Below are positions 236-27,072 of a stretch of 35,522 nt of DNA, in pieces (position 1 is the stretch's first letter; each line of letters opens with the position of its first letter). The position numbers and the translations under genes are program-made. Origin of the DNA: a virus; the IMG/VR virus record IMGVR_UViG_3300027968_000013, positions 1-35,522 of that record. One strand, given 5' to 3'. A model generated the notes under the pieces. The model did not search any database. It saw only the letters and a list, made by a program, of their open reading frames with translations, and had not been told where the DNA came from.

Positions 236-885
236 ACCGTGACCGGCGGCGGGGCTGCCACCTCGATCACCCAGTCCGCCTCGTCGACCGCGGTGGTGAT
301 CGTCGCGGACCCGGGGGCAGTGCTGCTGGTGCAGGCGATGACGCCCAGGTCGGTGCCGCCGCTGCTGTTGCCGATATCTCCCGTCGACGAGCCCGGCAGC
401 AGGTTCCCCGGGGACGGCAGGGTGAGGCCCCCCCCGCCGGACCCGGAAGAGTTGACCCCGCCGTACCCGTAGACCAGCAGCGACGACGCCTGCTGCTCGG
501 TGTAGGACGGAGGCGGCAGCGTGGTCTGGTAGCTGCTGCTGACAGCCACGGCGCTGCCCAGCACCGGGGACGAGGCCGCGCCGCCGCGGACCGCGTACAT
601 GACCACGCTCGGCCACACGGCGGCGGTGGCGGTCAGCGTGTACGCCCCCGGCTCGCTGGATGCGACCCGCCACGCCAGCAGGAACTGGTGGTTCGTCGGG
701 TTGGCCCCGAGGCCCTTGTTCCAGATCGCGGTCCACCCGGACGGCACATCCCATACCCCGGCCGTGTACGAGACGGCGGCGAGGATGAGGAAGTCGCCGT
801 TGCGCACCCCGGACGGCACGTTGATGGTCACCGAGGTGACGCCGTCCGGGGCGGCGCTGTCCGAGCCGACGAAGCTGAAGCTCAC
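1..885 (-). CDS. Virion protein with beta domain and Pro/Arg repeats (3' end outside window)
   Basis: Open minus-strand frame from a GTG at 885 to the window edge (295 codons, no stop). The start has a GGAGG about 4 bases upstream. Residues 1-120 (SFSFVGSDSAAP..., GDFLILAAVSY, SGWTAIW, AYTLTATA) resemble the secreted-type beta domain found in many actinophage tail or head-fibre proteins, with hydrophobic strands separated by Gly/Ser loops. A Ser/Gly-rich stretch follows. From about residue 218 there are perfect 36-residue repeats rich in Pro, Arg and Gly (PFPQPGRPAKG, GGWQRAAGRY, TTPPPPAA). The position downstream of the tape measure and another virion gene suggests a minor tail or adhesion-related protein; the function is inferred only. 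An eight-G run at 427-434 keeps the frame open here but is a possible slippage site. Confidence 0.7.
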   Translation of the reverse strand, partial: MSFSFVGSDSAAPDGVTSVTINVPSGVRNGDFLILAAVSYTAGVWDVPSGWTAIWNKGLGANPTNHQFLLAWRVASSEPGAYTLTATAAVWPSVVMYAVRGGAASSPVLGSAVAVSSSYQTTLPPPSYTEQQASSLLVYGYGGVNSSGSGGGGLTLPSPGNLLPGSSTGDIGNSSGGTDLGVIACTSSTAPGSATITTAVDEADWVIEVAAPPPVTVAPFPQPGRPAKGTPAARRGGWQRAAGRYTTPPPPAAAPFPQPGRPAKGTPAARRGGWQRAAGRYTTPPPPAAAPFPQP

Positions 886-903
886 CGGGACCTCCGGAGG
901 AAG

Positions 904-923
904 CCCCGGCCTTCAGGCCGGGG
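904..923 (+). repeat. Perfect TTCA-loop hairpin, IS605-end-like
   Basis: CCCCGGCC-TTCA-GGCCGGGG is a perfect 8-bp stem with a TTCA loop, followed by AGGAAC, in the gap between two minus-strand genes (886-958). It matches the last hairpin of the TnpB-type right ends seen at 11003 and 12205 but lacks the GGATGTCA tail. It could be a solitary transposon-end remnant or simply a strong intercistronic hairpin. There is no T tract, so a classical terminator is not supported. Confidence 0.5.
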
Positions 924-958
924 AGGAACCGCGGCCCTCAAGGCGGGGGGGGCGGCTG

Positions 959-10830: not shown

Positions 10831-10920
10831 AACAGCCTCCGATCAGGCGACGGCCGTGCCGCGCATGCAGGCAGACGTGACCGGTGTCCTTGCAGGCCGC
10901 AAGCCCGGTCGTTCAGGGCC

Positions 10921-11031
10921 GGGTAAGACCGGAAGGGCCCCGGAGGATTCCGGGGAGGCGCGGCCCAGTGAAACAGGAAACCCGGCCCGTGAGGGAAGGA
11001 ATCCCGGTCCTTCAGGGCCGGGAGGATGTCA
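10921..11031 (+). ncRNA. omegaRNA-like TnpB right-end element B
   Basis: Plus-strand element in a 206-base gap between minus-strand genes. It aligns with element A at 12113-12234: GTAAGACC start, CAGTGAA-CAGGAAA core, then two hairpins and GGAGGATGTCA. Stem 1 is CC..CCC-GTGA-GGG..GG (10982-10999). Stem 2 is CCCGGTCC-TTCA-GGGCCGGG (11003-11022, one G-U pair). Read as protein, one frame gives VRPEGPRR...VKQE...GIPVLQGREDV, the C-terminal tail typical of TnpB-coding ends. The sequence after GATGTCA (from 11032) would be the guide; it overlaps the stop codon of the convergent gene. An earlier TTCA-like motif (10910-10922) may be a left-end remnant. No tnpB remains here. Expression is not shown. 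Confidence 0.6.
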
Positions 11032-11036
11032 GCGAA

Positions 11037-11552
11037 CTAGGCGTTGATGATTTCCCAGACGCTGCACTGAATCAAAGAATCGTACCTTAGCCACCGCTCA
11101 TCCTCGAGCGCCTCGATGCCGGTCCTGTACGTCATCGTCTCGCCCACGTTGTACACGGTGCTCGTCAGGTTCGTCGCCGGGTCAGTCAGCTCAGCCGGGT
11201 TCGGCTGCGCCGTCCGCAGCGCCAGCATCACCGTGTCCACGATCGACGGGAACTTCGGATCCTGCTGCGTGCCGCCCCCGGCCGACGTCCACGTGATGTA
11301 AATGTCGAACTGGTGCAGCAGCCCCTTCGTCCCCGACGCGGTGCCCGCCCCCGTGTTGCGGGGGATCGTGCCGCCTAGTTCCCCGGAGCGGTTCTCCCGG
11401 CCGTCCGACGGCCAGATGTAGATGGCGGGAACCCTCGCCCTGACACGCGGGTCCGGGGGGGTGATGTACGCCTTCGCCGCGGGGATGCCGTAGGGAAGCT
11501 CCAGATTGTCAAGGAGGCCGCGGAGAAAACCCTGGATGGTGACGATAGGCAA
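11037..11552 (-). CDS. Tail terminator / neck protein
   Basis: 171 residues from a TTG at 11552 preceded by GGGAGG at about 8 bases. It begins IVTIQGFLRGLLDNLELPYG and continues with AYITPPDPRVRARVPAIYIWPSDG, HQFDIYITW, SIVDTVMLALRTAQ and ALEDERWLRYDSLIQCSVWEIINA. The mixed alpha/beta pattern, with a long helix followed by strands, plus its place between the connector and the tail tube, fits the gpU-like tail terminator family that caps the tube at the neck. The family assignment is by pattern and position, not by a diagnostic motif. Its stop codon lies four bases from the convergent RNA-like element. Confidence 0.65.
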   Translation of the reverse strand: MPIVTIQGFLRGLLDNLELPYGIPAAKAYITPPDPRVRARVPAIYIWPSDGRENRSGELGGTIPRNTGAGTASGTKGLLHQFDIYITWTSAGGGTQQDPKFPSIVDTVMLALRTAQPNPAELTDPATNLTSTVYNVGETMTYRTGIEALEDERWLRYDSLIQCSVWEIINA

Positions 11553-11907: not shown

Positions 11908-12028
11908 AGGCCGCCTCCTTATGCGATTGCCACCTCACCAGAGTTCTGGCGCGGAGACCCCCGCCTTCAGGCGGGGAGGAAGCGCCTCCCTCCCTTCTCT
12001 AGATCGTTAACTGATCTTTTGCTAGAAT

Positions 12029-12112
12029 ATGGAATGCGCCTGCGGCGCAACCCATGACCGCGACGTGAACGCGGCGAAGAACATCTCGGCCGCCGGGCTG
12101 GCGGACAAGTAA
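12029..12112 (+). pseudogene. tnpB: tnpB C-terminal fragment
   Basis: An ATG at 12029 opens a 27-codon frame, MECACGATHDRDVNAAKNIS then AAGLADK and TAA. The C-x-C-G ... HDRDVNAAKNI string is the end of the zinc finger and the RuvC-III motif of TnpB (catalytic Asp in HDRD, conserved N-A-A-x-N). Everything upstream, including RuvC-I, RuvC-II and the helical domains, is absent, so no nuclease can be made. Past the stop the same frame still reads CGAGVRPQRRPP...VKQE...GIPSLQGGEDVN, the usual TnpB tail. Confidence 0.85.
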
Positions 12113-12234
12113 AACGCCTGTGGAGCTGGTGTAAGACCTCAACGGAGACCTCCGAGCGGGCAACTGGCAGTGAAGCAGGAAGACCAACCCGTGAGGGTTG
12201 GAATCCCCTCCCTTCAGGGAGGGGAGGATGTCAA
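12113..12234 (+). ncRNA. omegaRNA-like TnpB right-end element A
   Basis: After the tnpB stop comes GGTGTAAGACC, the CAGTGAAGCAGGAA core, and two strong hairpins: CCAACCC-GTGA-GGGTTGG (12184-12201, perfect with a GNRA loop) and CCCCTCCC-TTCA-GGGAGGGG (12205-12224, perfect). It ends AGGATGTCAA, the standard scaffold end before the guide in TnpB-associated RNAs. The guide would start at 12235 (TGTGCTCACCAG...). Element B shows the same layout with compensatory stem changes. The scaffold looks intact although the nuclease gene is gone; transcription is not demonstrated. Confidence 0.65.
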
Positions 12235-12281
12235 TGTGCTCACCAGTTCTCCCGCCAGTCCCCGGGGCTGGTGACTGTCCG

Positions 12282-17110: not shown

Positions 17111-19015
17111 CTAGCTGAAGGGGGTCGTGTCGGAAACTTGCAGTCCCTGCAAGATTCCGCTGTAGAACGGCGCATGCGCCACGAGGGCGCCGAGCAGGAA
17201 GATGGAGTAGCGGAACGTCGCGTCGATGACAGGCCACGCGACGGACACGTAGTCCTGGACGCAGGTCATCTCCCACGCGTTGTCCACATGGCTCCACGTC
17301 TGCGGGAGCTGGTAGGACATCAGCAGCGCCGTCCCCTGCGACAGCCAGGGGTGCACGGTCAGCTTCAGCGTGGACCTGGTGACCGGGTTGACGAACTCGG
17401 CCACCGCCGCCCCGGCGCGCACGCCGGAGATCTGGTCCTGGGAGATGTTCAGCAGGTAGTTGAGGCCCGCCCCCTGGGTGAGGATGTCGTTGGCGAGCCG
17501 CATCAGGTCACCGCCGTCGGCGACGATCTCCGACGGGTCAGCCCGGAACTTCCCCGGGGTGACGTTGTTGAGGCCGTTGTTCTCCCACAGCCCGTCGAGG
17601 GCGGTGAAGATGGCGTTGGTGGACAGGTGGGTGCCGACGGCCTGGTTGACGTACCCGCCCTGCCACACGCCCGCGCCGGACTCGAACCCGACGTTCGAGT
17701 AAGGGCCGGCGCCTGAACCGGACAGCCCGGACAGGACCGGGATCAGCCCTTCCATGCTGTTGGAGTTGCCGGTGCCCGTGTCCGCGGCCGGGGGAACCTG
17801 GTTGGCGGAAGTGGCCAGCGGGCCCTGCAAGGTGAACCGGATCCCGCCGACCGAGTTGGCGGTCTGCGCCCCGGCATAGGACACCCCGCCCTGGGTGGTC
17901 GTGCCCGCCATCAGGTACCAGGTCGCACCGGAGTTGGTGGCCACGTAAATGTTGTACTGCTGGGCACCCGGCACCGGGGTGATGGTCACGTCGGCGACCT
18001 GGCCTGCCGACCAGGGGATGTTCCCGCTGGACGGGGACGCCGGAGTCTCGCCGAAGTACGTCAGCGCCGTCACCTTCACCGAGATGTTGGCGGTGACGCC
18101 CGACAGGGCCGTCTCGTTGGAACCCGCGGTCCGCGTCGTCACCGACGGCGCGGCGGGAACCTGGAGGTTCTGGCTGGTGCCGGCCAGCAGCTGGTACTCC
18201 TCGCCCATCATCATCTCCTGCAGCAGCACCAGGTTGGCGAGCGCGGAGATGTCCTCGAAACCCTGGCCCTCGAACTGGGCCAGCCAGCTCAGCGCCTCGC
18301 TGAGCCCGAAGAAGCGGTAAGGGACGTTGAGCTTGTACTGGGTCTGCTTGCCGGACGGGGGGATGTTCAGCGGCCACGACGAGCCGGAGATTCCCGTCTG
18401 CCCGGATTCGACCAGTTCGGGGATGGCGATGTTGACGATGCCCTGGCCGCCGGTCTGGGAGCCGGACACGCCGAGCAGGCCGTACACCTGCCGGGATGCG
18501 CCCTGGCCTGCGGGGCGGGGGATCTTGTTCCGGAACAGGGTGTAGACGGGGTAGACCAGGCGGGAAGGGGCGAGGAGGTCGAACGGGACGAGCCCGTACG
18601 GGGCGCCCGCCCCTCCCAGGCTGGTCGCGGTGAAGTTCTTCCGGACCATCGCATCCCGCTGGGCCATGAACTTCATCGCCCCGGCACGCGGATGGCTCCA
18701 GAACTCGTCCCGGATCCCCGACACCACCGAGTCGGTCTCCCACGCGCCCGCCACCGTGGCGGCGCGGGTCTTCATGATCGTGTCATGGGAGCGGGTCATG
18801 ATCTCGGAGCCGTGCGACACGTCGGTCAGCGGCACGCCGCCGTTGATGACATGGCCGACGCCCTTGACAAGGTTCTTCGCCTTCGCGGTGAAGAACTCGC
18901 CGTACTCGGTGTGCCTGCGGGCTTCCATGCCCGCGAGGGCGTTCGCGGCTCCTGCCGCGGCACCGCCCATCCGAGGGGGGGTGATCCCCTCGTCCTGGTC
19001 AAGCGTTACTGCCAC
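17111..19015 (-). CDS. Major capsid protein with fibronectin-III-like insertion
   Basis: 634 residues from a GTG at 19015 with AGGAGG four bases upstream. The N-terminal part has VPLTDVSHGSEIMTRSHDTI and RDEFWSHPRAGAMKFMAQRD. The core has YKLNVPYRFFGLSEALSWLA, ISALANLVLLQEMMMGEEYQ, and a C-terminal helix/sheet region (WENNGLNNVTPGKFRADPSE, DYVSVAWPVIDATFRY), as in actinophage HK97-fold capsids. Residues about 284-400 form an insert (VTTRTAG, ISVKVTALTYFGETPASP, YNIYVATNSGATWYLMAG) with a fibronectin-III-like strand pattern. It likely projects from the capsid surface. Directly upstream is the protease/scaffold gene, the standard order. It is larger than typical capsids because of the insert. 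Confidence 0.88.
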   Translation of the reverse strand: MAVTLDQDEGITPPRMGGAAAGAANALAGMEARRHTEYGEFFTAKAKNLVKGVGHVINGGVPLTDVSHGSEIMTRSHDTIMKTRAATVAGAWETDSVVSGIRDEFWSHPRAGAMKFMAQRDAMVRKNFTATSLGGAGAPYGLVPFDLLAPSRLVYPVYTLFRNKIPRPAGQGASRQVYGLLGVSGSQTGGQGIVNIAIPELVESGQTGISGSSWPLNIPPSGKQTQYKLNVPYRFFGLSEALSWLAQFEGQGFEDISALANLVLLQEMMMGEEYQLLAGTSQNLQVPAAPSVTTRTAGSNETALSGVTANISVKVTALTYFGETPASPSSGNIPWSAGQVADVTITPVPGAQQYNIYVATNSGATWYLMAGTTTQGGVSYAGAQTANSVGGIRFTLQGPLATSANQVPPAADTGTGNSNSMEGLIPVLSGLSGSGAGPYSNVGFESGAGVWQGGYVNQAVGTHLSTNAIFTALDGLWENNGLNNVTPGKFRADPSEIVADGGDLMRLANDILTQGAGLNYLLNISQDQISGVRAGAAVAEFVNPVTRSTLKLTVHPWLSQGTALLMSYQLPQTWSHVDNAWEMTCVQDYVSVAWPVIDATFRYSIFLLGALVAHAPFYSGILQGLQVSDTTPFS

Positions 19016-22000: not shown

Positions 22001-22978
22001 GAACTGCGGGTCCACGATCTGCTGGTCATGGTCCACGGAGCCGTCGGTTGCGCGGCCGTAGACCATGAGGTCGCCGTCCGGCGTGCTTTCGACCTTCTCG
22101 ATGCCGAACGAGTAGAAGACATCGGCCTTCGTCAGCTCGCCGGAATCAGTGAGGGTAGCGGCCACACGGCTCCTTACTGTGTCAACGGCATGCCAAGCTG
22201 CCGGACGGCCAAAGTTGGCGGTATGGGTGGGGGGGTGCAGGAAGAGATAGCTGCCGGCGGATAACGCGGCCCCGCTGCCCTGATCCCTCCCGCTGCCTGG
22301 CGGCAGCGGGAACTCGGCCAGCAGCCGCGACCTCGCCGCGTACCTCGGGGGCCGCTCCCACAGGGGAAGCACGTAACCCCAGCTTGACAGGACCGAGTCG
22401 TAGCGGAGGCGGACCATCACCCCGGCGGCCTCGCAGGCGTTCAGGGCATCGGCGACATCGGCGAGGAGGGCGGCGGCCTTGCGCTGCATCTCCGGCTGGG
22501 GGGCGCGGGCCGCTGCCGGGAGCGCTGAGATGACAGCTTTGACGGCGCGCTTGCCGGAGGGCTTGCGCTTGCGGCGGCGTGCGGTCATGCTCACCTGCCC
22601 GGGGGAATCACCTGCGGGTAACTGCTTCGCCGCTTTCAGCTTCTCCCACTCCCTGACCGCGGCGGCAGCGGCGGCCCGGACCTCCGGGTGGACGCGGCCC
22701 TTCCCGGAAGCCCAGCGTTTCACGGCCCCTACTGCCAGCCGCACCGCTTCCTGCTCCGAGTGCCCGTTGCGTTCCAGGGCCTTCGCGATGTTCTCGATGT
22801 AATCGGGCAGGTGCTCAACCGGATGCTTGCGATGCCACAGCGGAGCCGGCCCCAGGGCGGTGTGAGTGGAGGCAAGTTCCGGGGTCTTCGCGGATTTCTG
22901 CATCACACTCGCCAATCCCCGTCCTTCAGGGCCGGGATCCCCGCCCCGGACGGCGGGGCCTGCGCCGCGCCACGTCAC
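19043..22978 (-). CDS. Prohead maturation protease fused to scaffold-like regions
   Basis: 1311 residues from a GTG at 22978 that overlaps the portal stop (GTGA). An ATG at 22903 is an alternative. Residues about 50-120 form a helical N-terminal domain (AVGAVKRWASGKGRVHPEVR). Residues about 285-430 match the HK97-type S78 prohead protease: VRVQHN (His about 345), LRAYSVG (Ser about 390), VVEISLVDRPAN (Glu about 416). Residues about 555-620 match the DUF6582-type segment (DIDTAARRRLAKEGKALSDG, LIARRAKELG). The remainder is Pro/Ala/Lys-rich, with a duplicated helical motif near 1080-1150 (VDEARSRLG / IGEARAQLG) and a C-terminal helix, consistent with scaffold. It cleaves scaffold and capsid N-termini during maturation. 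The size is far above the usual 200-600 residues. Confidence 0.85.
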   Translation of the reverse strand: MTWRGAGPAVRGGDPGPEGRGLASVMQKSAKTPELASTHTALGPAPLWHRKHPVEHLPDYIENIAKALERNGHSEQEAVRLAVGAVKRWASGKGRVHPEVRAAAAAAVREWEKLKAAKQLPAGDSPGQVSMTARRRKRKPSGKRAVKAVISALPAAARAPQPEMQRKAAALLADVADALNACEAAGVMVRLRYDSVLSSWGYVLPLWERPPRYAARSRLLAEFPLPPGSGRDQGSGAALSAGSYLFLHPPTHTANFGRPAAWHAVDTVRSRVAATLTDSGELTKADVFYSFGIEKVESTPDGDLMVYGRATDGSVDHDQQIVDPQFSSKSIRDWLQSGGNVRVQHNPQRDPAGVGLEVSTDAEGATWVKSLIVEPVAKKLVSKGALRAYSVGIARPTIVRDAVAKGGRITDGQVVEISLVDRPANARCGIQLVAKSADGTPEYVGKVFGADDAIAKALNEPEITKDGGVTKKAADLPGPAGPVACGGGTFSMPRVQKSGEDLSVTFTPNDMARLLQHKFVQKHYDDLARQAAAETRHDDGEAALKAIADAEALVTKRDIDTAARRRLAKEGKALSDGSYPIENTGDLHNAAVLARSGHGDVAAARRLIARRAKELGVPNPLKDGKGKKDKSASAEGESVATPDVTKKPEDSGGGENAGQGKAAGALEEAAPAGAGASRKKARDGKKARKKARDGKKLPPWLRGGDPQDGMDSTPDGGHAEKCRTDPAAAAGVTASPMQPAPVSDLQESTATAAMKAGPTPASASGAEGEHMDPVPAHREPDGAEVEAFEKDSGLQDGDSEKPGRLEVPTLKSSPEVAALLRFRQAAIDPELGRLHDLTCPAFHPEDVAKCHPFADFRTVIDEAAFHRKAVEAAAGQSPDRAKAMQQAWQAARILREADPAVLNDFRLGAWKAFRDANPGPGTAPVPGSISPGKFNRPLITEGHEASSPGHAGPAAPPPAASGAPDAHGFARPPLSAGHQSPSPSFMKASWEYPAETGRPVQLRYEVTEKERARQALAAMHESLGRQFPLVCPIDLDRPVPQPQARPVPAAAGVSKSAAPDPAAAAAVFKAEPERDGQFADADLLKARRKLRKKLGRKVLSGRMTVDEARSRLGRDAAQKSRRALQRKLAVKVSKGEISIGEARAQLGLTPLAGPAAAQKAAGIPFVNQYGEPARSASVRTVAPAAPAAAGPEVIKAAVTEALAPVAAELAATKALLAEQRESYDKKLAEQQRVIDAIADQPDPSTAAFSGLAFNPVHKQRRPAGVLSQAEVAERTQQMMIRHLTDRYNSASDPAEREAAYATLCKMRGISQ
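20891..20950. repeat. 30-bp in-frame tandem duplication
   Basis: CTTCTTGCCGTCCCTGGCCT plus ten more bases at 20891-20920 is repeated at 20921-20950. On the minus strand it encodes two copies of a Lys/Arg-rich unit (KKARDG type) in the disordered middle of the protease/scaffold protein. The 30-base period keeps the frame. Confidence 0.8.
22917..22936 (+). repeat. Degenerate TTCA-loop hairpin, IS605-end-like
   Basis: CCCCGTCC-TTCA-GGGCCGGG, preceded by AAT, closely matches stem 2 of element B (AATCCCGGTCCTTCAGGGCC) with one mismatched pair, but lacks the GGAGGATGTCA tail. It lies within the first 25 codons of the protease gene if GTG 22978 is used, or between portal and protease if ATG 22903 is used. 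It may be a relic of the same element family or a chance GC-rich hairpin. Confidence 0.4.
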
Positions 22979-25900
22979 ACGTTCTCCGGGTCGGAACCTG
23001 AATGGATCTGCCGGTCGTGCGTTTCCAGCGCGGCCATCCGGTCCCCCGGGTCGATGTTCCCCACGTAGGCGAGCACCTTCTGCCCGAGCTTCTTGCGGGC
23101 CAGGGCCCGGTGATGCCCGTCGACTATAAACGCGCGGTGAGTGCCCGGCTCCTGCACCAGCACCGACGGGGCGACATGCCCCTTATGCTCCCGGATCAGC
23201 GTGACGAACTCGTTCACCTTGCCAGGCTGGTGAGACGCAGCCCACTTGTCCTCGTCGTCGGTGTCAACCCGGTCCCACGGCACCCACACCGGGCCCACCC
23301 ACCGGGCCCGCCTGACCCACGAGATGGCGTCCGCGGGGAAGTTCTTCGCCATCTGCAGGTACACGTGCTCGGCGTCGACCGGTGACGGGTCGCTGAAGTC
23401 GCTGACGCTCTTGCGGGAATCCCCCGACGGGGGTATCCCGGTCCGCGCGCCGATCGCGGCAGCCGGGGGCTGCAGCGTGTTCTGCGGCGCCGGCCACATG
23501 CCGCCGTGCTCGCTGCCCTGGTCCGGGAACACGGCCGCGGGGGGGGCGGGCTTGCGGCCGCGGACGGGGAACTTCCCGTCTTCGTCGCCGCGCGGGTACA
23601 GGCGCGGGTGCGTCCCGGATGCGAAGTCATCTTCCCAGTGCGGCGGCTCGCCGCCCGCCGACCCGTGCCCGTCCGGGACCGCCCCCGGCCCGGCGTCAGG
23701 CCAGTGCCCGGCTTCTTCCGTCCCGTCCGCCCGGTGCGGGTACGGCCATCGCGACCCCGCGGCCTGCAGGGCCTGCGCGGCGGGGGTGAGGACCAGTTCC
23801 TCCCCGTCCTCGCTGGCCATCCGCTGCAGCGCCTTGCCGAGATCCTTCCAGTCAACGGACTCCCACTCGCTGCGGAAAGCGGCGGACAGGTTCAGGTCCC
23901 CGATCTCCTTGCGCCGGTACCAGCCGGCGCCCAGGGTCTCATCCGGGGCCGAGGCTTGCAGCGACGGCTGGAAGAACGGGGCGTCGCACAGGAAGATGCT
24001 GACCGTCTTCCCGCCGCGTTCCCGGATCAGGGTGGCGCGGCGCTTCAGCGGCGGCAGCGGCCCCGTCTCCTCCTGCGCTTCGCGCAGCGCCGTGTCCCAC
24101 GGGTCCTCGCCGGCGCGGGCGGTGCCTCCGGGGAGATCCCATTCGCCGGAGCCGGAGCGCAGGTGCAGCAGGTAGCGGTGCTTGCCGTCTTCGGGGGAGC
24201 GGGAGCGGATCAGCAGGAACGACGCGCGGGTCTCGTCGTCTTTCGCCGCCTTCCCGAGATCCGCGAGCGGCGGCTCGGCGGCGGCCTGGGAGGGGGCAGG
24301 AACGCACCGGTCCCGGACATGGACCTGGCCGATCACCCCCCCGGCGGAGAACGGGGCGTCCAGCGGGATATCCCCGTCTTCGGCCACGTCCTTGCACAGG
24401 TCGCAGGCATCCGGGGACAGCAGCAGGTGCTTGTGCGTCACCCCGTAGTCCCGGTAGCACTGGATCGCCGCCGAGTTGATAGCGCGCCCGGTCTCAGTCC
24501 AGGCGATCATCTCAGCGCGGGCCGTGCTGCCCTCGAGCCCTGTCCTCGAGATCTCGGTGAGCCAGTGCTCGCCTTCGGTGGCGATGAACCCCCGCAGCGC
24601 CTCCGTGGCATGCTCCGCGGTGAAATCGGGGGGCTCGCCGGTGACGAGGCTCCTGGCGGCGGCGTAGCCGAGATGCCATGCTTCCGTCCACAGCGGGGTC
24701 AGCACGGCGGCGAGCACGTCGCGTATCTCGCCGGAGATCAGGTCGCGGAGGGTGCTGCCGGAGACGAACATGCCGCCGGCGGCGGCTTTCTTCCGCAGCG
24801 CCGACCCCCGCGCCTCAGCATCGCGGAAGGCGCGGGCGATCTGCTGCTTGTACGCGCCGACAAGGCCCAGGTCATGTTCCCAGCCGGGCCAGCGGGCAGC
24901 GGCCTTCCCCGTGACAGCAGGCACGTCCCCGCCGTCTCGGGGAGCATCCTCCGGCGGGCTGCCGTCCCCGGAGCCGCTCTTAAGGCAGATGGCCCCGGCG
25001 CGTTCCACGGCCGTGTCGATCAGGACGCCCTTCGCCAGGTCCTCCGCTATCGCGGACAGCGCCCTCGGCGGGATGTGCTCCGCAGCCCACGTGGAAATGG
25101 CCCGGCCCTTCCGCAGGTGCCGTCTCAGCGCGTCCAGCTCGCAGGCGGCAGCCTTGTGATGCGTGGCCCGGCCCGTCGCCGCCTCCCCCCGCTTCCGGCT
25201 CCCGGCCACCGGGGACCGTGACGGGGTTCCCCCCGTCCGCGGGGTCGGCGACTGGATCGCCCCGGCCGCGGCGGAATGCTGCGGGGTGAGGGATTCCCGG
25301 TGCGGTGCCAGCGGCTTCGGGTGCGTCCCCCCCGGCAGGACCTGCCCGGCGCGGCGCACCGACGGCTGGCTGGTCCGCGACCGCGACGACGGGGTCCGCT
25401 GCCCCGTGTTGGTGCCCTGCCCGGCGCCGCCGCCGCCCTCGATGGCTGCCCGGATCAGGTCCGGGGCCATCGAGAACGGCACCGGGCCCTGCGCGGTGAA
25501 CACCACCGGCTCGGAGGTTTCCCGCAGCCCCCACGGCGGCATGTCCAGCCGGTCCCGCACCTCGTCAACCGACGCGATGCCGTTCTGGACCTGCTGAACC
25601 CCCAGCTCGGTGATCTTCGCCTTGTCCTCGTCGTCGGTCAGCCCGGCGAACTTGAATTCCATGTCCTGCTGCCCGCAGATGTCCTGCAGGACGTAGTTGA
25701 AGATGTCCGCGGCGAACAGCAGCAGCGGCTTGGTCGACTTGCGGCTGCCGACGTCGGTTTCCCGCAGCGCCATCTGCGTGGCCATCGTCGACGGGCCCTT
25801 GCTGCCCGCGCTGCCCGCGACCATCGGCAGGATCCCCAGCTCGGCGGGGTTCACGTCGAACTGCATGCACACCTGGGTCTGCACCAGCAGGTCGAACCCG

Positions 25901-27072
25901 TCGGACAGGTCCACCGGCCGCTGCGGGTTCACCCTCGACCCGGCGGGCAGCACGATCACCTTCAGGTGGTAGGCGGGGTCGCCGGCTATCCCGTTGAGGG
26001 CGTCCTGGAGTTCCTTGATCTGCCCGGGGGTCATGTTCGCGTCGCCGGGGGAGATGTACACGGCGGGGATGGTGCCCTGGGTGAAGTAGTCGAGCTGGAA
26101 CTCCTGCTTCTGCAGGCCGGAGATGATCGGCAGCAGCGCCTGCTCGACCGGGGGGTACCCGTAGGGGGTGGTGCGGCGGGGGACGAACGGCCGGTACAGC
26201 ATCACGTCGGCGCGGAACGCGTTGACCTCGGCGCCGGCGAGGCCGCCTTCGTCGATGTCCGCGCCGGAGATCACCGTCTGGTAGTCCGAGCGGGGAACCC
26301 CGTACAGGTACTGCTGGTAGGCGGGGGCGGGGGGTGCGGGCTTGCCGCCGTGCATGTCGAGCAGGGGGCGGATGGTCTCCCCGTCGACGAGGCGGATCGA
26401 GTCCAGGTCGCTGCCGAGCAGGCCCCGGCCGAGGCCCCGCCCGTATTTGGGGCGGAAGACCAGCGACAGGGCATCGAAGACGAGCACCTGCTCCAGTATC
26501 GCCTTGAACCAGTCCTGGAACCGGAAGAAGTCCGGGTCGGGATGGCGGAAGAACCTGGTGGCGGCGGCGGCGCGCTCCCCGAAGTCCCGCATCGCGTGCC
26601 GGTCGCCCTGGTAGGCCTTCGCGGCGTGCTTGGTGAGGGCGATCTCCCATTCCAGGCCGGCGATCTCGTCTTTGCGGAGCTCGATGCACCGCCGGGCGAC
26701 GGAGTACCGTTCAGCGATGGTGCGGAGCTGGTCGAAGGAGGCGAGTTTCAGGCCTTCGGCGCCGGGGAGGGTGGGCAGGTTCCAGCCGACCTGGTACTGC
26801 CACCAGCGGGGGCCGGGGAACCCGCCGGGGATGGCGGGCTGGTCGACGGGCACCGGCTGGATCGGGGACATGGGGCCGAACGCGCCGTCGGTGAACACCT
26901 GGGACGGGCGGGGCAGGAACGGGCCGTAAGACGACTGCCAGGGGGTGCCGTACATGGCGTTGGAGGCGACCTGGTTCCAGCCGCCCCACCCGCCGGCGGA
27001 CGGCGCGGGGGTGTAGCGTGCGCCGCCGGGGACGGCTTTCATCGCGGCGAGGACACCGGAGGCACGGGACAT
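22975..27072 (-). CDS. Portal protein fused to MuF-like, Nudix and ParB-like domains
   Basis: 1365 residues from an ATG at 27072 with GGGAGGAGG upstream. Residues about 80-545 are a phage portal (ERYSVARRCIELRKDEIAGL, YGYPPVEQALLPIISGLQKQ, VCMQFDVNPAELGI). A linker follows. About 730-925 form a MuF-like minor-head domain (EMIAWTETGRAINSAAIQCY, CDLCKDVAEDGDIPLDAPFS, VHVRDRC). About 948-1075 are a Nudix hydrolase with the box G-x5-E-x7-RE-x2-EE at 983-1004 (TARAGEDPWDTALREAQEET inside it). About 1235-1350 form a ParB/sulfiredoxin-like domain with FIVDGHHRALARKKL (VDGHHR at 1317-1322). Portal plus MuF fusion is known; the added Nudix and ParB-like domains are unusual and may be delivered with the DNA. 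Confidence 0.88.
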   Translation of the reverse strand: MSRASGVLAAMKAVPGGARYTPAPSAGGWGGWNQVASNAMYGTPWQSSYGPFLPRPSQVFTDGAFGPMSPIQPVPVDQPAIPGGFPGPRWWQYQVGWNLPTLPGAEGLKLASFDQLRTIAERYSVARRCIELRKDEIAGLEWEIALTKHAAKAYQGDRHAMRDFGERAAAATRFFRHPDPDFFRFQDWFKAILEQVLVFDALSLVFRPKYGRGLGRGLLGSDLDSIRLVDGETIRPLLDMHGGKPAPPAPAYQQYLYGVPRSDYQTVISGADIDEGGLAGAEVNAFRADVMLYRPFVPRRTTPYGYPPVEQALLPIISGLQKQEFQLDYFTQGTIPAVYISPGDANMTPGQIKELQDALNGIAGDPAYHLKVIVLPAGSRVNPQRPVDLSDGFDLLVQTQVCMQFDVNPAELGILPMVAGSAGSKGPSTMATQMALRETDVGSRKSTKPLLLFAADIFNYVLQDICGQQDMEFKFAGLTDDEDKAKITELGVQQVQNGIASVDEVRDRLDMPPWGLRETSEPVVFTAQGPVPFSMAPDLIRAAIEGGGGAGQGTNTGQRTPSSRSRTSQPSVRRAGQVLPGGTHPKPLAPHRESLTPQHSAAAGAIQSPTPRTGGTPSRSPVAGSRKRGEAATGRATHHKAAACELDALRRHLRKGRAISTWAAEHIPPRALSAIAEDLAKGVLIDTAVERAGAICLKSGSGDGSPPEDAPRDGGDVPAVTGKAAARWPGWEHDLGLVGAYKQQIARAFRDAEARGSALRKKAAAGGMFVSGSTLRDLISGEIRDVLAAVLTPLWTEAWHLGYAAARSLVTGEPPDFTAEHATEALRGFIATEGEHWLTEISRTGLEGSTARAEMIAWTETGRAINSAAIQCYRDYGVTHKHLLLSPDACDLCKDVAEDGDIPLDAPFSAGGVIGQVHVRDRCVPAPSQAAAEPPLADLGKAAKDDETRASFLLIRSRSPEDGKHRYLLHLRSGSGEWDLPGGTARAGEDPWDTALREAQEETGPLPPLKRRATLIRERGGKTVSIFLCDAPFFQPSLQASAPDETLGAGWYRRKEIGDLNLSAAFRSEWESVDWKDLGKALQRMASEDGEELVLTPAAQALQAAGSRWPYPHRADGTEEAGHWPDAGPGAVPDGHGSAGGEPPHWEDDFASGTHPRLYPRGDEDGKFPVRGRKPAPPAAVFPDQGSEHGGMWPAPQNTLQPPAAAIGARTGIPPSGDSRKSVSDFSDPSPVDAEHVYLQMAKNFPADAISWVRRARWVGPVWVPWDRVDTDDEDKWAASHQPGKVNEFVTLIREHKGHVAPSVLVQEPGTHRAFIVDGHHRALARKKLGQKVLAYVGNIDPGDRMAALETHDRQIHSGSDPENV

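Follow-up and report, generated by a model that had tools for sequence, protein, structure and literature searches.

The window studied here, i.e. the whole 35,522-nt stretch of viral DNA (IMG/VR record IMGVR_UViG_3300027968_000013), contains two short insertions, elements 1 and 2, and the remains of a third. They are very probably recent, PATE-like non-autonomous derivatives of IS200/IS605 elements, moved in trans by a Y1 transposase, in which the omegaRNA scaffold was kept because it forms the right end. Elements of this kind are already known, and elements 1 and 2 are further examples. We favour this reading because single full-length elements match element 1 at both ends, because the two ends of element 2 match L106, and because related contigs lack both elements, copies without tnpB recur elsewhere and Y1 is present in 4 of 7 bacterial genomes carrying the family.

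Extent and ends of element 1

The components of element 1 are as follows (window positions).

11935-11939, plus strand: left target pentamer TCACC, also the expected TAM; TCATC stands there in most full-length relatives, TCACC in L105
11940-12234, plus strand: element 1, a 295-bp non-autonomous IS200/IS605-type (TnpB) derivative made of left end, tnpB tail and right end
11948-11952 and 11982-11986, plus strand: outer helix of the left end, GGCGC/GCGCC, from folding
11958-11978, plus strand: left-end hairpin with a TTCA loop, from folding; same hairpin in the P1312, T. fusca and Microbispora elements
12023-12028, plus strand: retained -10 box TAGAAT of the putative tnpB leaderless promoter, from comparison with 33 full-length relatives
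12029-12112, plus strand: last 27 tnpB codons (HDRDVNAAKN, with the RuvC-III Asp), MECACGATHDRDVNAAKNISAAGLADK and stop, open from an ATG created at the deletion junction
12117-12234, plus strand: complete omegaRNA scaffold, four helices, 118 nt, end GGATGTCAA; 140 bits with model R2, 35 of 35 consensus pairs, 97% identical to the L116 scaffold
12235-12254, plus strand: predicted guide TGTGCTCACCAGTTCTCCCG, which is the right flank of the insertion; positioned by homology with element ends

Since the left end is intact (11940-12028) and matches those of full TnpB elements at 91-92% identity, element 1 is an internal-deletion derivative that has both ends. These subterminal hairpin ends can each be traced to single full-length elements: the G002 copy is 92% identical to the left end and 93% to the tail plus right end, and the G003 copy 91% to the left end and 88% to the right part. 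Before its tnpB start, Thermobifida phage P1312 reads GGAGTTCTGGCGCGGAGACC-hairpin-GGAGGAAGCGCC...TTAACTGATCTTCTAGTAAAATGTGAG. The corresponding sequence of the window is AGAGTTCTGGCGCGGAGACC-hairpin-GGAGGAAGCGCC...TTAACTGATCTTTTGCTAGAAT, after which the tnpB tail follows at once. The comparison shows that the core has been deleted: a single internal event removed about 1 kb, from just past the -10 box at the left end up to about codon 342 of tnpB. When the region was used as a blast query, the matches were tnpB 3' ends in phage P1312, mycobacteriophages and Streptomyces plasmids.

A preliminary description of this DNA had placed a minimal TnpB element at 11960-12256, with the tnpB tail followed by a complete-looking right end. 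The right end is indeed there, but the whole element spans 11940-12234 and has a left end too, which that description did not discuss. The same description had recognized the final 27 codons of tnpB with the RuvC-III Asp, found at 12029-12112, and had set the guide start at 12235, which agrees with the location of the element end at 12234. The two hairpins it had named are both intact, one being CCAACCC GTGA GGGTTGG and the other CCCCTCCC TTCA GGGAGGGG. Its view that the RNA half was kept and the nuclease lost is borne out by the full set of 35 pairs next to a mere 27 tnpB codons, and its report that tnpA was absent by a search of the 35.5 kb record, where no Y1_Tnp domain was found.

Of the 22 full-length relatives that could be parsed cleanly, 21 had TCATC as the pentamer ahead of the left end and one had TCACC (11 more left ends, several visibly with TCATC, were not parsed by the script and are outside this count). 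The TCACC of element 1 is therefore a motif found in left ends of the family; it also precedes the left ends of the relatives of element 3 (see below). In 16 of the 22 cases the pentamer, read on the other strand as G(A/G)TGA, is the beginning of a frame that is 80 codons or longer or that continues to the end of the locus; this suggests that the family tends to insert just ahead of the start codons of genes on the opposite strand. The preference of the family for sites after TCATC, usually with an ATGA gene start on the opposite strand, was noticed at the left ends of L003, L005, L081, L099, L105 and other loci.

One oddity was noted at the junctions: the right flank (12239-12250; CTCACCAGTTCT; TGTG CTCACCAG TTCT) resembles the left junction (11934-11947; CTCACCAGAGTTCT), a likeness that is not predicted by a clean IS605 insertion.

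The omegaRNA scaffold

As an earlier covariance model, R1, had included the window's own scaffolds, a second one, R2, was built without any window sequence. In the covariance search that had been suggested beforehand, this self-built model gave 140 bits (E about 1e-31) at 12117-12234, and Rfam returned no family at the gathering score over the whole window. Weaker R2 matches in the window, e.g. 18864-18969, are probably due to chance. The element 1 strand folds better than 200 of 200 dinucleotide shuffles (z -2.9), and an alignment of 21 scaffolds displays two-sided, pair-keeping changes at 16 of the 35 consensus pairs. By sequence and structure, the scaffold of element 1 belongs to the TnpB omegaRNA family up to the guide junction. 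With 35 pairs out of 35 it is above many copies that adjoin an intact tnpB, and it has four differences from the L116 scaffold in 118 positions. Random substitution at the observed divergence leaves all pairs whole with P = 0.08 (versus L116) or 0.04 (versus L095). This hints at constraint on the scaffold; the test is a weak one and is no proof of use in the phage, since it also counts the time spent beside tnpB.

Promoter and guide

The 33 full-length relatives have a [TC]ANNNT hexamer 8-13 nt ahead of the start codon, with A at -12 in 30 and a pyrimidine at -13 in 28 (the T at -8 was fixed by the pattern used in the search). A hexamer 8-13 nt before the start codon is the layout of actinobacterial leaderless promoters, and by this analogy the hexamer is probably one. 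Because TAGAAT is retained at 12023-12028, the promoter, scaffold and guide of element 1 could form an RNA gene, with transcription possibly driven by TAGAAT and reaching the scaffold and guide by way of the tail.

No match to guide 1 was found in IMG/VR with an exact 18-mer, and within the window a second target was limited to a chance-level match with 3 mismatches. For the guide of element 2, the 18-mer search of IMG/VR gave a single match; it lies in an unrelated contig and was rejected as a target, being a chance match. These results bear on the proposal that the RNAs have been exapted as regulators, directing a repressor or nuclease derived from TnpB to a gene of the host or of a rival phage. 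Phage-encoded repressors derived from TnpB (TldR) are known (PMC13418256). The guides here match solely their own right flanks, as those of any fresh insertion would, the record has no gene for a dead TnpB, and the elements are not conserved across relatives, so that we consider exaptation extremely improbable. TldR-type regulators have a nuclease-dead TnpB beside the guide, where element 1 has just its 27 tnpB codons.

Elements 2 and 3

The last 66 bases of element 1 have a second copy in the window, at 10966-11031 (blast). It belongs to element 2, 1.2 kb from element 1; a third sequence, element 3, is reduced to a left end. Both had escaped the preliminary description.

10878-10882, plus strand: probable left target TGACC of element 2, to be compared with TGATC ahead of the L106 left end; a weaker case than element 1
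10883-11032, plus strand: element 2, a 150-bp derivative of another omegaRNA subtype, with the left-end hairpin fused straight to the omegaRNA core; from L106 homology
10909-11032, plus strand: omegaRNA core of element 2, without the outer stem and ending in GTCAG; 74 bits with R2, 27 of 35 consensus pairs
11033-11052, plus strand: predicted guide of element 2, CGAACTAGGCGTTGATGATT, which includes the stop codon of the head-tail gene lying upstream
about 882-929, plus strand: element 3, a left-end-only scrap, TCACC + GGGACCTCCGGAGGAAG + TTCA-loop hairpin; 26 bits with R2, G019 left end

The scaffold of element 2 is of the T. fusca/L106 subtype (82% identical to that of L106 over 110 nt) and its left end, GGCCGCAAGCCCGGTCGTTC...GCCGGGTAAG, is homologous to the L106 left end. 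As the fusion sits inside a GGTAAGACCG-like repeat, GG(G)TAAG(A/G)CCG, that left end and omegaRNA share, element 2 appears to be the product of a repeat-mediated core deletion. It has also lost the tnpB promoter. The loss of outer stem and promoter is what is expected if the transposition ends alone matter. Element 3 (about 887-929) is 96% identical over 47 nt to a left end of G019 that has TCACC and is followed by a full TnpB; as a third, left-end-only scrap it fits serial decay.

The decayed state of elements 2 and 3, the former without promoter and outer stem and the latter with one end only, together with the failure to find further copies of the element 1 or 2 derivatives, speaks for the elements being inert by now: immobile, without useful transcription and heading for loss. 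Such a fate is compatible with the same origin, and we give it a little less than an even chance, for element 1 keeps both ends and all its helices and pairs better than many copies that still bear tnpB.

Full-length relatives and other copies

A scan of 84,980 genomes with the left-end pattern returned 12 stretches. Four were true relatives, from T. fusca, a Microbispora MAG, Nonomuraea jabiensis and a MAG labelled Steroidobacteraceae; the same scan of IMG/VR gave one further relative, which is P1312-like. The tnpB frame begins after the left end in all five. The contig of the MAG labelled Steroidobacteraceae (L076, G002:C262) carries two actinobacterial-type TnpB elements and may be mis-binned.

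Among 300 Streptosporangiaceae genomes, 214 had a match to element 1, and TnpB elements with scaffolds 95-97% identical to its own occur in this family. The cognate TnpB with a matching right end, for which a search had been proposed, is thus found in actinobacteria, with near-identical right ends. Full TnpB elements such as L116/G143, L076/G002, L080/G003 and that of phage P1312 (KT021004) have left end, tnpB tail and omegaRNA as in element 1 (identity up to 97% for the scaffold and 93% for tail plus right end), but their TnpB, of about 368 aa, is intact, where element 1 has only 27 codons. Candidate TnpB partners thus exist in nature.

Of 30 scaffolds fetched from seven genomes, 25 were next to a near-full tnpB, 3 had none or only its tail, 1 had a partial gene and 1 was at a contig edge; the three with tnpB missing or reduced to its tail had no adjacent left end. 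In IMG/VR, four or five of the 37 stretches with the right-end pattern were without tnpB. Copies lacking tnpB are therefore a recurrent minority (3 of about 29 host-genome scaffolds, 4-5 of 37 viral ones). A Y1 transposase was present in four of seven bacterial genomes carrying the family and was not found in the other three, G001-G003. The left-end pattern revealed no other copy of the element 1 derivative in the 84,980 genomes or IMG/VR, and no copy spanning the whole element was seen in the 300 Streptosporangiaceae genomes (two candidates were scored per genome, so a low-scoring copy could escape). A search of IMG/VR with the element 2 junction gave no further copy either.

Two other arrangements were observed. 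In a viral contig (L031:9988-10437), a tnpB tail with a complete right end directly abuts the end of a CRISPR-like array (repeat GTTCCCCGCGCTCGCGGGGATGAACC). Near 1501-1560 of L153 (G019), a GGTCAA right end seems to be fused to a left end, giving a terminal-only form about 50 nt long that is comparable to the shortest PATEs.

Insertion sites and related contigs

The recognizable packaging and head genes of the window are on the minus strand. Elements 1 and 2, on the plus strand, are intergenic among the minus-strand head-tail genes, at 4 and 47 nt beyond stop codons. No scaffold of either element was found in 26 locus records from 25 related contigs with one or both flanking genes. At site 2, L061 has a 171-aa gene, 11 nt and the next start, versus about 206 nt in the window; at site 1, L053 has a 295-aa gene, 23 nt and the same small zinc-ribbon-like gene as the window, where about 374 nt are present. 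Related contigs without scaffolds and with short gaps between the same genes make it most likely that the elements entered this phage lineage after its split from them; loss from all 25 contigs is a less simple alternative. The comparison of related phages recommended in the preliminary description has thus shown the element to be absent from every one of them. No exact empty site for element 1 was found among these contigs, and as the nearest are only 70-78% identical to the window in DNA, we infer the insertion point from a boundary model in which the element-free site would read TCACC followed directly by TGTGCTCACCAG.

The position of both inserts, intergenic and antisense between minus-strand genes shortly after stop codons, would also suit an effect limited to the late mRNA, in which they would act only as transcription or folding signals. 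The related contigs manage without them and there is no conservation, which makes this very unlikely.

The nearest cultured phages are below 60% identity. With strict cut-offs, the capsid-like protein was unmatched in 347 genomes of the order and the terminase in 395 genomes of the class in searches for prophage relatives. A minor point concerns a very long portal-like frame of 1365 aa at 22975-27072; it has further matches, to a minor head protein and to a NUDIX hydrolase, and is possibly a fusion.

Origin of the elements

IS200/IS605-type TnpB elements, common in actinobacteria, would have hit the phage. As judged from the family (PMC8612924), a Y1 transposase acting in trans would recognize the end hairpins and insert the element as a single strand 3' of TCAYC, without target duplication. 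Element 1 then stems from its single deletion, and element 2 from a deletion between the repeats common to the left-end hairpin and the omegaRNA. We infer that the omegaRNA persists because the scaffold serves as the right end and because the insertion happened recently. Four points stand against the derivative reading: the failure to find an exact empty site, the likeness of flank and junction in element 1, the single copies, and the failure to find Y1 in G001-G003. It accounts for everything save that likeness.

The palindrome-associated transposable elements (PATEs) of Haloquadratum walsbyi (PMC3119063) are comparable to elements 1 and 2: they are transposase-free and have IS605-type ends with near-terminal palindromes, no target duplication is expected, and some were formed by repeat-mediated core deletion. 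They differ in being multi-copy in a chromosome. In the phage, elements 1 and 2 are each present once, and element 1, unlike PATEs, keeps a promoter, a tnpB tail and a complete omegaRNA. Elements 1 and 2 have no transposase gene and bear IS605-type palindromic ends; they lack amplified near-identical copies. Since no other copy of either was found, they are PATE-like and do not make up a homogeneous PATE family.

Possible use of the element 1 RNA

The anatomy of element 1 would allow the use of a host TnpB. Its omegaRNA, transcribed from its own promoter, might be loaded into a TnpB supplied by host or prophage; element-free phage genomes would hypothetically be cut at TCACC plus guide, and repair or survival would favour the carriers. 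Element 1 has the -10 box, a complete scaffold and a guide, TnpB elements with scaffolds 95-97% identical are found in Streptosporangiaceae, random substitution would disrupt one pair or more in 92-96% of trials, and gene-drive behaviour of TnpB has been reported in plasmids (PMC11870625). The latter drive illustrates the working principle; it has TnpB in cis, whereas element 1 would need that of a host. ISDra2 TnpB/reRNA (PMC8612924; structure PMC10097598) is like element 1 in that the guide RNA spans the tnpB 3' end and the right end, the guide is taken from the flank and the left target is the TAM; it differs in having TnpB and TnpA, a TAM TTGAT instead of TCAYC, and another scaffold.

Against such a drive, the searches of 347 and 395 genomes for prophage relatives pointed to no host, the guide 1 target was not found elsewhere (IMG/VR 18-mer), element 1 has not spread to the 25 related contigs, its left pentamer is TCACC and not the common TCATC, and the pairing test is weak and includes time beside tnpB. 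We hold this scenario to be unlikely. Slimmer still is the chance that element 1 is a selfish element consisting of a guide RNA alone, which would borrow the TnpB of the host and home between co-infecting phages without encoding a protein. The suggestion, made in the preliminary description, that the phage uses the RNA did not gain support: no further copies were found, intact pairing fits recent arrival alone, and element 2 is without outer stem and promoter. Mobilisation by a host TnpB, homing and the directing of a host nuclease, all raised there, are hypothetical proposals.

Standalone and trans-acting omegaRNAs were reportedly described by Altae-Tran et al. in 2021. If the element 1 RNA were used, it would be a mobile element of extremely small size, drive-like and consisting of a guide without protein, and host TnpBs would be reprogrammable by incoming phage DNA. 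As full-length relatives are at hand, action in trans is directly testable with named TnpB-scaffold pairs. If the elements are ordinary non-autonomous derivatives, as we favour, they still represent two independent core deletions in one phage, with the omegaRNA kept both times.
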